Shown here in pieces: positions 21,609 to 30,203 of a stretch of 64,000 bases of DNA. Position numbers and translations under genes: made by a program. Location of the stretch: the NCBI GenBank assembly GCA_001941075.1, contig MSHH01000064.1, forward strand, positions 25,463 to 89,462, read 5' to 3'. The notes beneath the pieces were generated by a model. It had not been told where the DNA came from and searched no databases. It saw only the letters and a list, made by a program, of their open reading frames with translations. Each line of letters opens with the position of its first letter. The stretch's first letter is position 1. The DNA is from Oscillospiraceae bacterium Zagget6. Lineage in GTDB: Bacteria > Bacillota > Clostridia > Oscillospirales > Oscillospiraceae.

Positions 21609-22708
21609 TCACGGGAGCGTTTCCGCAATCGCCATGTAGTAGTCCTCCAAAGCGGAGTGAGCGCTCTTGATATTGTACCTGGTGGAATGATAGGCTTCGC
21701 CGCCCCGGACCCGCGGCTCTGTTTTGCAGGACAGGATGGTCTCGGCCCACTGCTCCGGCGACTGTTCCAGCGAGAGAAAGACGGTTTTCTCGCTGATTTT
21801 TACCTCGTTCGGCACTTTATCCGAGAAAACGCAGGGCAGGTCAGAAAACTGCGCTTCGATCCCCACTACGGGGACGCCTTCAAACAGGGAGGGCAACACC
21901 AGCACGTCCATAGCCTGGTACAGCTGGTCCACGTTGCCGCAGCTGCCCAAAAAACGCACGCGGCCGCTGACGCCCAGTTCTTGGGCCTGCCGCCGAATCG
22001 CGTGTTCCTTTTCTCCCGTTCCAACCAGGAGCAAAAGGGCGTTGGCTTCTGTTTCAAAACGCTTGCGAAAATTTTCAGCAGAAAATGGTGATTTTTTTGT
22101 TGGGAGAGCCGTCCCACATGGCCGACGACAAATTCCGACTGGGAGATGCCCAGCTCCGTGCGTATTTTCTCGCGGGTCTCCGCGTTGAACAGGAACCGGT
22201 CCCCCTCGATGGCGTTGGGAATCACAGTGAAGTCCTCGGCCCCGAACAGGAAATTTCCCGCCTCCTGGCCACAGGCGCAGCGATAGTTTGCTACGGTAGA
22301 CAGTTTTCCTTTAAAAAAGAGCTTGAGCGGGTATTTATAATCCAGGTCGATGGAGGTGTTGTGGCTGTGGGCAATGCGCACCGGGACGTCGGCCTCCTTC
22401 GCGGTCAGCAGCGGAAGATAGCTCATGGAGTCGATGTGCGCGTGGATGATTTGGTATTCCGGATGATCGCGCCAAAACTGTTCCATATAGCGGAAATACG
22501 CAGGGTAGTTTTGGGGCAGCAGCCGCGGCGCATAAAACACCCTGCCGCCCAGCGCCAGGATCTCGTCGTCGTAGTCGCTTTTTTCCGGCCGGTGGGTCAG
22601 AAAATCGAACTGGAGCCTGGTGCGGTCCATGCTGCGGTAATAGTTCATCAGTATGGTTTCCAGCCCGGCTCTGTGCATATTATTAACGCACTGTAATACT
22701 CGTATCAT
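21609..22708 (-). pseudogene. Family-1-like glycosyltransferase with single frameshift
   Basis: N-terminal frame ...HFLLKIFASVLKQKPT continues in another frame as ALLLLVGTGEKEHAIRRQAQELGVSGRVRFLGS...; break near 22040. Confidence 0.8.
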
Positions 22709-23235
22709 TTTTTCGTGCTCGCTCTGTAGATCTCCAGGGTCTGGTCCACGATAGTGTCCCATTGATATTCCCCGCAGACAAACTCGGAGGACCCCCCTTT
22801 CCCCTTTGACAGTCTTTCACTGCGGCCCCGTTGTTGCACAAGGTCTGCAATGTCTCCCGCAGGATCGCCGTATCGCCCTGTGGGAAGGTCATGCTGTGGC
22901 CACCCAAAACGGAGGCGCGCTCCGCAATGTCCGGCGTGACACAGCAGCAGTCGTAGCTCAGCGCCTCCAGCAGAGTCAGCGGCATTCTCTCCACGTCGCT
23001 GGGCAGCACTATAGAGGTAGGCGTTGCGGTACAGTTTCTCCACGAACTGGTCGGATGCGGAGGACCCGCCCGCGATGACAAGCCGTTTGTCGGTCTGTAC
23101 GCCTCGAAAGGCGTCGATCAGGGCGGCAGCGCCTTTTTTCCGGCACAAGCCGACCCAGGCAGAGAAGGGAAAAGCCGCCTGGACGCGCATTTGCGCCGGA
23201 GCAGCATTTTTGACATCGAAAGGGATTTTCATCAT
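22683..23235 (-). pseudogene. Degenerate glycosyltransferase remnant (5'-truncated, two frameshifts, internal deletion)
   Basis: LCRKKGAAALIDAFRGVQTDKRLVIAGG...RNAYLY | VLPSDVERMPLTLLEALSYDCCCVTPDIAERASVLGG... | EFVCGEYQWDTIVDQTLEIYRASTKK in alternating frames. Confidence 0.8.
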
Positions 23236-27479: not shown

Positions 27480-27509
27480 CTCCCCCGCCTGGTTGGGCGG
27501 GGGAGTTTT
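27480..27509 (+). terminator. mreB intrinsic terminator
   Basis: CTCCCCCGCC-TGGTTG-GGCGGGGGAG-TTTT. Confidence 0.85.
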
Positions 27510-27510
27510 A

Positions 27511-28074
27511 CTATGGAGCTAAAAGGTGCCTATTCGTTGTTATAATATTGCAACTCTGAACATCTGAAAAATCAGCATCATTGGTAACTATAAAAGCGCC
27601 AACTTTATTCATTTCATATCCGTAGTAGCGATCATTAAAATCGAATGTTTGCGGATTATTGAACAAGAATGGTATGTCACCAGAAAAAGAGGAAAAACCA
27701 CTATCCACAAAATCAAAAACCGGCTTGATTTGACGTATGATAATGTACTTGAGTTCGTTTAGAATGTCAGAATACTCTGCACTTAGTTTAAATGTTTGCT
27801 TGAAATAGGACTTGGTGTGCGACCAGCCATTCAAGGAGGCAAGTCTATGAAACTCCCTTTGAATGTAAGTGTTTACAAATTCTGATAGCAAGACATCATT
27901 CATGAGTAATTTCGCGTGCGACCTAACAATTCTGGTCATTAGAGTCGAGTACGGACCTATTAATGAAGCATCGTAGGAACCATTTGTATAGTGCATATAC
28001 ATTAAGATGTTGCAATCTAAAAAATAAATTTCTCCCTCCTTCGGCATATGTGTATTCGCATCTAAAATCGCCAT
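27511..28074 (-). CDS. PIN-like domain protein (putative ribonuclease)
   Basis: IYFLDCNILMYM; MNDVLLSEFVN; NDRYYGYEMNKVGAFIVTNDADF: spaced PIN acidic residues; ORF can start further upstream at 28122. Confidence 0.75.
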   Translation of the reverse strand: MAILDANTHMPKEGEIYFLDCNILMYMHYTNGSYDASLIGPYSTLMTRIVRSHAKLLMNDVLLSEFVNTYIQREFHRLASLNGWSHTKSYFKQTFKLSAEYSDILNELKYIIIRQIKPVFDFVDSGFSSFSGDIPFLFNNPQTFDFNDRYYGYEMNKVGAFIVTNDADFSDVQSCNIITTNRHLLAP

Positions 28075-28090
28075 AAATAACCTGCTCCAA

Positions 28091-28420
28091 TCATAAAAAC
28101 TCGTCCAATGCATCCGACACACTTTCAGGATTTGCGTAGAAATCTTTAGCGCGTGAAATAACTCTTTGCAAAATGAACATATCTTCTTGACACAGATTGA
28201 TGATTTTAAGATTTCCGTTCAAAAACTGGCTATCATAATCTTTGTACAACGCGCCTATAGCGTTATTGAGGAACGTTGAAAGGATGGTTTGCATCCCACT
28301 GAAATCAACTTCAACCTTCTCGTTTTCAGAAAAACCTTCCACTATTTTAGCGTGGATTCTATCTCCCTGCTGCATATCGGTTGCTCGATCACCAATTTCC
28401 TGTAGCACACTAATAATCAT
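28091..28420 (-). CDS. STAS-like (DUF4325-type) domain protein
   Basis: VEVDFSGMQTILSTFLNNAIGALYKDYDSQFLNGNLKIINL. Confidence 0.7.
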   Translation of the reverse strand: MIISVLQEIGDRATDMQQGDRIHAKIVEGFSENEKVEVDFSGMQTILSTFLNNAIGALYKDYDSQFLNGNLKIINLCQEDMFILQRVISRAKDFYANPESVSDALDEFL

Positions 28421-28438
28421 ATTTCCCTCCTAGTTTTC

Positions 28439-29323
28439 TTAAAATAACAGTTCAGAATTTGATGGTACATCATGTATATATAGATTAGTATCGTTTTGAT
28501 CTATTTCTATATTCACGATTGTCCCAGGGAAAACTTGCTCAAATTCTCTTTTTCCTTCTGCTCCATTATTGATTTCCCAAAATTCCCTGCCGGAAATTAT
28601 TTGAAATTTTCCTTTGTTGTAACTAATGAAATCTTTCATTAACGATAGACCAATTCCCCCAGTTGTTCCTCTTTTAGTAGAATGATTGGGCTGGACTGCC
28701 CATGAAATGCTGTTGTCTGGAAGGACAGCATCCATTTCCGTTAAATAAGGTATCACGTTTTCTTGGAAAGTTCTTCCTAAATTTACAATAGTAAAATCCA
28801 TTTTATGATAGTAAGGATAATACTGTCCACAAGTGTATACATATGCGCAATTTCCGTGAATCTGCGCATTTCCAAATAACTCTTGTATATACGAGCTAAT
28901 TGCTTTTTTTACAGCTAAATCCATACTGGGAAAGTATCCAATTAACTCATCATCCATGTAGTGGCTAAAGTTGTATGTATCATTAGCTTTAAACACTTTA
29001 AAAGGAATTACTGTTTCAGAATCATGAGGACAATATTCTAAATTGAAACAATGCTTACCAAATCCATTCCGAACAAACAATTTCGTCAATGTACAATCAT
29101 GTTGATTGCGATATATGCTTGTAACGCCTTTTTGTCGTCCTAATTCTACAATAGCATAAAGTGCAGGTAATAAATTCGCGTCAAACCATGTATTCTCTTT
29201 GAAATTGAGCACTACAGATGTATCTTGTGTACAAATATTATATATACTTGCAAGATTTAATAAATCTCTATAACCTGTATAGTTGCTCTTTATCGATTTT
29301 GGAATGATTATCTGTATTGTCAT
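28439..29323 (-). CDS. GHKL/HATPase-type ATP-binding protein with STAS-like N-terminus
   Basis: ELFGNAQIHGN (N box), DFTIVNLG, RGTTGGIGLSLMKDFI (G box); N-term VVLNFKENTWFDANLLPALYAIVELGRQKGV. Confidence 0.75.
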   Translation of the reverse strand: MTIQIIIPKSIKSNYTGYRDLLNLASIYNICTQDTSVVLNFKENTWFDANLLPALYAIVELGRQKGVTSIYRNQHDCTLTKLFVRNGFGKHCFNLEYCPHDSETVIPFKVFKANDTYNFSHYMDDELIGYFPSMDLAVKKAISSYIQELFGNAQIHGNCAYVYTCGQYYPYYHKMDFTIVNLGRTFQENVIPYLTEMDAVLPDNSISWAVQPNHSTKRGTTGGIGLSLMKDFISYNKGKFQIISGREFWEINNGAEGKREFEQVFPGTIVNIEIDQNDTNLYIHDVPSNSELLF

Positions 29324-29450
29324 TTCTTCTCTTTCTTCGCCAATTCAGTTAGCCTTCTTTTGATAGCTGCAAAAATAATCAGCAGAAACTACAAGAGTAC
29401 TATGAAACCGAGTTACTACACTTATATTGGCACCTACTATATACTATGCT

Positions 29451-29494
29451 ATTATACCCTAATAATGAAATAATGGCAAGGCTAATTTGCCATT
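29451..29494 (-). promoter_or_regulatory. Promoter and inverted-repeat operator of the HATPase/STAS/PIN operon
   Basis: Minus strand TTGCCA(29479-29474)-N17-TATAAT(29456-29451); perfect IR AATGGCAA(29472-29479)-N7-TTGCCATT(29487-29494) over the -35. Confidence 0.65.
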
Positions 29495-29567
29495 TTAATT
29501 TATAGAATCAGTTTTTTAGCATCAAGTTCACCCTATTCCCAATTTGAACAAAAACGATGCTTTACTA

Positions 29568-30203
29568 TTATTTCTGCCGAATCGGGTGCTGAATCACCGT
29601 TTTCTGCTTCTCTGGGGCGGTTTTGCGGGGATCGCTGAGATAAATCTCGTGGTGGAGCCTCTGGTCGTTAATGTCCAGCGCGTACCCCTGAGCGGTCATA
29701 AATTCGTGCATCCGCCGAACGGTGGCCGGTTCCTCATCGTAGGGACCGATGTGCATACACTGGACGCACAGCCCCTCGTCAACGGTCAGGAACTCCACCG
29801 GGGAGAAGTCGGTCTTTTTCTTCCGGGTGGCCTCGGCCACGGCCCAGTCGAAGTCCGCCTTGGTAACGAAATCCGGCAGACGAATAACGGAAATGAACCG
29901 AAAGTCCTCTTTTCGGCTGTAGTCAATGTCTGCGTCCTGGCCCGGCTGCTGCCAGAAGCCCTCCAGCGGCGGCACCACGTAGTCGAAATAGCCCTCGATG
30001 GTGTGACTGCCCTTTTTACTCATTTTAATGGTATAGGCCACCCCATAGAGCAGACCAATGGAGGCTTTGTAAGCGCCGTCCATGGCGTTGGGGTCGCCGA
30101 CGCCGAGGACGGCCAGGTAATTCATGGGTGGAACGGTGACGATACCCGGCGTTTTCTTGGGCAGATAGAACTCTTTGTACTCTTTTTTGTAATCAAAGGC
30201 TAT
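29568..30203 (-). CDS. GyrI-like small-molecule-binding domain protein, apparent ATA start
   Basis: Translation from 30203: (ATA)AFDYKKEYKEFYLPKKTPGIVTVPPMNYLAVLGVGDPNAMDG...; GAGGAG RBS 9-10 nt upstream; first ATG only at 30125. Confidence 0.7.
   Translation of the reverse strand: MAFDYKKEYKEFYLPKKTPGIVTVPPMNYLAVLGVGDPNAMDGAYKASIGLLYGVAYTIKMSKKGSHTIEGYFDYVVPPLEGFWQQPGQDADIDYSRKEDFRFISVIRLPDFVTKADFDWAVAEATRKKKTDFSPVEFLTVDEGLCVQCMHIGPYDEEPATVRRMHEFMTAQGYALDINDQRLHHEIYLSDPRKTAPEKQKTVIQHPIRQK

Follow-up and report, generated by a model that had tools for sequence, protein, structure and literature searches.

Background

The vapKSC system was described by Chambers et al. (EMBO J., 9 June 2026; PMC13373217) in Escherichia sp. 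E4736. Its three genes encode a STAS-GHKL kinase resembling CapK, a STAS-type antitoxin and a PIN toxin similar to VapC. Escherichia VapC is toxic, and substitution D28A abolishes its toxicity. VapS neutralises the toxin through direct binding, and neutralisation is abolished by S48E or by deletion of residues 94-116; in the crystal structure of the VapS-VapC complex (PDB 9Z7O), a 2:2 assembly, S48 is located at the interface. The operon confers approximately 100-fold protection against phage Bas42, which is lost in VapC D28A, VapS S48A and VapK F54A. Activation of Escherichia VapK by ssDNA was deduced from CapK (shown to need ssDNA), from a model and from F54A, and direct phosphorylation of VapS by VapK as well as the RNA target are deductions even for Escherichia. 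For 36% of vapKSC operons, a defence gene at a distance of no more than 10 kb is reported (PMC13373217). The name vapKSC was found in this report only within the literature searched.

Three other types of described systems share parts of this design. CapK-CapS comprises a GHKL kinase and a STAS substrate with a conserved Ser, but CapK has an N-terminal HTH and CapS a winged HTH acting on DNA (PMC13373217). SpoIIAB-SpoIIAA and RsbW-RsbV follow the same logic of kinase fold and STAS substrate and control sigma factors. VapBC shares the PIN RNase toxin fold and relies on a DNA-binding VapB.

Identification of a vapKSC operon

The window (the whole stretch of 64,000 nt analysed here, from Oscillospiraceae bacterium Zagget6) contains a three-gene module that resembles Escherichia VapKSC in gene order, domain content, Ser48 phosphoacceptor, catalytic Asp and C-terminal tail of VapS. 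Homology of VapS and VapC to their Escherichia counterparts is statistically supported, though identity is low. The module differs from the Escherichia system in its distant sequence, in Asn and Thr in the G1 box of VapK and in host lineage. In contrast to CapK-CapS, the kinase and substrate have neither HTH nor winged HTH and are joined to a PIN toxin; in contrast to SpoIIAB-SpoIIAA and RsbW-RsbV, the controlled partner would be a nuclease toxin. No VapB-type antitoxin was found next to vapC. The adjoining gene encodes a DUF4325 STAS protein instead; on the published model, phosphorylation of this protein would release the toxin.

We estimate at roughly 93% the probability that this module is a vapKSC operon, in which VapK phosphorylates VapS and thereby releases VapC, and that it is a probably horizontally acquired insert. 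It is a well-supported additional member of a system that is itself already described. The first-pass annotation, made from the letters of the window, regarded the combination as undescribed. This claim is wrong and is corrected here, since the window proteins match VapKSC as characterised in June 2026 (PMC13373217, 9Z7O); a match to a characterised system had been named there as one of the findings that would refute the proposal. The newly published system thus reaches this bacterial lineage.

Features of the locus are listed in Table 1. The genes are separated by 18 and 16 nt, and GC content is 32-38% across 27500-29500 as against 54-69% in most flanking intervals, so that the AT-rich island and the three co-directional genes with short gaps were described correctly, coordinates included, at first pass. 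The most likely start of vapC is the ATG at 28074; a GTG at 28122 is possible and would yield 203 aa. PADLOC 2.0.0 and NCBIfam searches of the window proteins gave no useful match, and no Rfam RNA was found in 27510-29567. Elsewhere in the window (21609-22762, minus strand), a glycosyltransferase-like frame appears split into two overlapping frames, as by frameshift or assembly error.

Table 1. Coordinates of the vapKSC operon, its key codons and adjacent elements in the window
Feature	Position	Strand	Remarks
Terminator hairpin, GC-rich	27480-27505		Borders insert; host element serving mbl
AT-rich insert	27510-29567		2,058 nt; vapKSC and promoter region only
vapC	28074-27511	minus	Third gene; 187 aa from ATG 28074
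VapC Asp20 codon	28015-28017	minus	Equivalent of catalytic Asp28 of Escherichia VapC (phmmer alignment to 9z7o_C)
vapS	28420-28091	minus	Second gene; 109 aa; AGGAGG upstream
VapS Ser48 codon	28277-28279	minus	Equivalent of phosphoacceptor Ser48 of Escherichia VapS
vapK	29323-28439	minus	First gene; 294 aa
VapK Asn181 codon	28781-28783	minus	Replaces Asp of ATP-site D-x-G-x-G motif
Likely sigma-70-type promoter TTGCCA-17-TATAAT	29451-29479	minus	About 128 nt upstream of vapK
Inverted repeat AATGGCAA-N7-TTGCCATT	29472-29494		Overlaps -35 element

Conserved residues of VapS and VapC

VapS matches Pfam PF14213 (DUF4325) significantly (E=2.5e-14), as anticipated by its earlier description as a DUF4325-like STAS protein. 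In a single-sequence search of the PDB it matches 9z7o_A, "Escherichia VapS", with E=1.5e-6. A VapS profile built from five relatives, none of them from Escherichia, retrieves 9z7o_A only (2.2e-23), and a VapC profile built in the same way retrieves 9z7o_C only (1e-21). In the gapless alignment to 9z7o_A, Ser48 of the window protein corresponds to Escherichia Ser48, given that numbering of 9z7o_A is offset by 18 (tag) and that native Escherichia VapS has 116 residues, as in PMC13373217. This position is occupied by S or T in all 77 aligned sequences (S in 41, T in 36). The C-terminal tail (DFYANPESVSDALDEFL) extends 17 residues beyond K92 and would be the counterpart of Escherichia VapS residues 94-116; in all 77 VapS of complete systems the tail beyond the conserved Lys comprises 15-27 residues. 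A second DUF4325 gene was not found in the host genome assembly.

Window VapC scores below the Pfam cut-off for PIN_12 (E=0.037). Its identity as a PIN protein is nevertheless confirmed by profiles, models and relatives: it matches 9z7o_C, "Escherichia VapC", in a single-sequence search (E=6e-5), and its AlphaFold2 model (pLDDT 93.1) matches VapC and related PIN structures. All elements of the motif pattern "D..N, E, D, TNDADF" noted at first pass are present, as D20-C-N22, E65, D145-F-N-D148 and T-N-D166-A-D168-F. The acidic residues, whose lack of conservation would have been a refuting finding according to that annotation, are conserved: D20 is found in 76/77 sequences (one gap), E65, D148 and D166 in 77/77 and D168 in 74/77. 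When phages and plasmids were searched with window VapC by tblastn, no match was obtained.

The kinase and its ATP site

VapK likewise scores below the Pfam cut-off for HATPase_c (E=0.18), but profiles, models and relatives confirm an N-terminal STAS domain followed by a GHKL kinase, in accordance with the original description. It matches phrog_3364 with E=9e-30. The AlphaFold2 model (pLDDT 91.9) is confident throughout the kinase core and begins with the STAS domain; an N-terminal HTH of CapK type was not found. In a structure search of the PDB, the best match of the model is SpoIIAB (E=1.8e-5), with RsbV lower in the list, and the STAS region matches anti-sigma factor antagonists. The fold library used for the VapK and VapC models ends in April 2026, and 9Z7O is not among its matches; from the input alignments of both models, one row originating from a phage record was left out.

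Six residues (E148, N152, H156, G183, G223 and G225) are invariant in all 77 VapK, i.e. in 76 relatives and the window protein. The N-box and G2 box of the latter are intact, with catalytic Glu148 and Mg-binding Asn152 retained. The position of W46 is aromatic in 75/77 sequences (W in 50, F in 22, Y in 3), which is consistent with equivalence to F54 of Escherichia VapK and W68 of CapK at the putative ssDNA site.

The D-x-G-x-G motif reads N-L-G-R-T in the window, with Asn at the adenine-binding Asp and Thr at the final Gly. Because of these two replacements, ATP binding or kinase rate of window VapK may be altered. NLGRT could also mean a weaker or different nucleotide site, and for this reason we retain as an alternative, albeit an unlikely one, that the operon is degenerate: the kinase (N181, T185) would bind ATP poorly, and VapS-VapC would be a plain toxin-antitoxin pair kept for stability. 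The weak HATPase_c match and the rarity of the Asp replacement, seen in just 3 of 77 sequences (the window and two relatives; D in 74), agree with such degeneration. On the other hand, all three reading frames are intact, Glu148, Asn152, the G2 box and the aromatic site are kept, and the model shows a confident kinase core. Furthermore, Thr185 occurs in 27 of 77 sequences, and the VapK of one relative (L042) has NLGTT with everything else intact.

Proposed mode of action

Every functional step of the window operon is modelled here on Escherichia VapKSC. VapS would bind a dimer of VapC, a PIN RNase, its C-terminal tail covering the region of the active site. VapK would sense single-stranded DNA arising from phage attack or DNA damage and, once activated, phosphorylate VapS at Ser48. 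Since the phosphate would fall within the VapS-VapC interface, VapC would be set free; it could then cleave RNA and halt growth, an outcome similar to abortive infection. In outline, the first-pass annotation had foreseen this, proposing that a GHKL/STAS partner switch restrains or frees a PIN RNase in defence or as a toxin-antitoxin module. This agrees with what was shown or modelled for Escherichia VapKSC, and the key residues are kept in the window.

Genomic site and control elements

Alignments to three congeners (G019, G027 and G014) break off at window position 27509 and pick up again at 29568 or 29577. The bounds of the insert, 27510-29567, were set by these breaks, which reveal an empty site in the congeners. 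The insert is flanked by what we take to be mbl/mreB and a GyrI-like gene, named by similarity. Since the GC-rich hairpin at its border is also present in congeners devoid of the insert, we assign this terminator to the host. The distance between mbl/mreB and the GyrI-like gene at the empty site is 70 nt in G019, 231 nt in G027 and 342 nt in G014; the spot downstream of the mbl terminator (window 27506-29567) thus accommodates either these short sequences or vapKSC, in the manner of a small insertion hot spot. No direct repeats, a mark of transposition or of an integrase event, were found to flank the insert.

Among 31 congeners no close VapK was detected; a single weak kinase-like match occurs in G013. 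In a concatenated tree, the window operon is closest to that of L047 (support 1.0), a viral contig on which the operon adjoins an integrase-like gene. The self-contained 2,058-nt insert was probably acquired horizontally. It lies outside any defence island in this genome and is a lone insert, whereas Escherichia vapKSC resides beside other defence genes. VapKSC can therefore exist as a minimal, self-contained chromosomal insert.

The candidate promoter of vapK agrees with the consensus at 11 of 12 positions and is the best in the region by consensus match. The inverted repeat over its -35 element is a possible operator, yet none of the operon's three proteins contains a known DNA-binding domain. 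The repeat bears on a switch of CapK/CapS type, in which VapS would repress the operon and the kinase would raise expression of VapC rather than free the protein. The related protein CapS is indeed a repressor (PMC13373217). However, with 109 aa, window VapS consists of STAS and the 17-residue tail, and the C-terminal winged HTH of CapS type was not found in it; moreover, in Escherichia it is direct binding of VapS that neutralises the toxin (PMC13373217). We regard transcriptional control of this kind as very improbable and keep to release of VapC by phosphorylation of VapS.

Co-occurrence of the three genes

A scan of 84,980 species genomes was performed with VapS alone as query, in the form of a four-row alignment; wider VapS alignments were too diverse to give patterns. 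As VapK and VapC were not part of the query, the scan is a fair test of association. VapK, VapS and VapC are encoded together at 70 of the 80 loci returned, an association far beyond chance, and three of the ten remaining loci are truncated by a contig end. Co-occurrence of the three families, which the first-pass annotation had suggested examining, is thereby established. Considering all sources, 76 distant complete systems were collected, and in each of them (76/76) the three genes lie on one strand, separated by short gaps and arranged K-S-C, as in the window (STAS-GHKL kinase lacking HTH, STAS protein, PIN protein). Counts of phrog_3364 over the phylum (335/399 genomes) were discarded, as unrelated GHKL-type kinases were matched too. 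Immediate neighbours of the relatives (n=110 proteins) include type I restriction components (4 specificity subunits and 3 methyltransferases), one Cas7 and many housekeeping proteins.

An ordinary SpoIIAB/SpoIIAA or RsbW/RsbV sigma-factor switch with a PIN gene adjacent by chance, to which the SpoIIAB, RsbV and anti-sigma antagonist matches of VapK would be suited, is scarcely credible and already largely refuted because the third gene is conserved: the PIN gene is present at 70/80 VapS loci and always third, none of the three genes that make up the insert encodes a sigma factor, the VapS profile finds Escherichia VapS alone in the PDB, VapK carries an N-terminal STAS domain, and the VapS tail goes with the presence of VapC.

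Carriage and variants

Complete vapKSC operons are present on temperate phages or phage contigs (L002, L003 1420-3189, L039, L040, L042-L045, L047 and L048). One adjoins the integrase of Streptococcus prophage Javan172 (L002 2489-4278), where VapC is unannotated; further copies are located on the faecal phage contig MT837343 and on eight other IMG/VR contigs. Several of these operons adjoin integrase, repressor or lysis genes. The system was also found on a Deinococcus plasmid and in three archaeal MAGs (L056, L058 and L065; two Methanosarcina-related and one Euryarchaeota), for which MAG contamination is possible. The set gathered here thereby adds carriage by temperate phages, a plasmid and archaeal MAGs to the published account, and the main text of PMC13373217 does not discuss phage carriage of vapKSC.

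In three marine Flavobacteriaceae, a dCTP deaminase gene is followed by vapK-vapS and VapC is absent: Dokdonia pacifica (L104 997-4273), Mesoflavibacter zeaxanthinifaciens (L119 1038-4306) and Tenacibaculum skagerrakense (L126 1050-4273). With E-values of roughly 1e-114 to 1e-120, the deaminases match the anti-phage dCTPase of PADLOC. Deaminase as a term is absent from the main text of PMC13373217. The VapS tail of these loci extends only 6-10 residues beyond the conserved Lys, compared with 15-27 in complete systems. That the tail is tied to the presence of VapC provides independent comparative support for the published model of inhibition. A search of 250 further genomes of the family gave only one distant VapK, hence this variant is rare. 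Tentatively, with chances somewhat short of even, the VapK/VapS pair may be a portable damage-sensing switch that was re-coupled to another effector, the dCTP deaminase. If so, sensing of ssDNA by VapK would control nucleotide depletion.

Several incomplete or rearranged loci were encountered. A lone VapS homologue with Thr as phosphoacceptor lies on a contig of 411 kb that was classed as viral (L041 3989-4327); VapK is absent from the whole contig, and no VapC lies within 4 kb. The homologue may be either a decoy antitoxin or part of a piece of bacterial DNA. As a candidate phage antitoxin mimic it was set aside and is a lead only: Terminase_6N was not found and its neighbours include no clear phage genes. 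At another locus (L059 939-7456), VapK is missing, and genes for VapS and for a VapC of 111 aa with an internal deletion lie between apparent mod and res genes of type III restriction. In phage LYGO9 (L129 2159-3348) and Javan140 (L131 2054-3243), prophages of Streptococcus agalactiae and S. dysgalactiae, the lysin gene is followed by a kinase-like gene and a gene for a 99-aa protein, with no PIN gene; this pair is possibly a two-gene relative of VapKS. At L009 (1285-3430), the K and S genes precede one for an unknown protein of 204 aa. Finally, kinase and substrate are fused at L017 (1294-2577), where a single polypeptide contains STAS-GHKL and then a second STAS domain.
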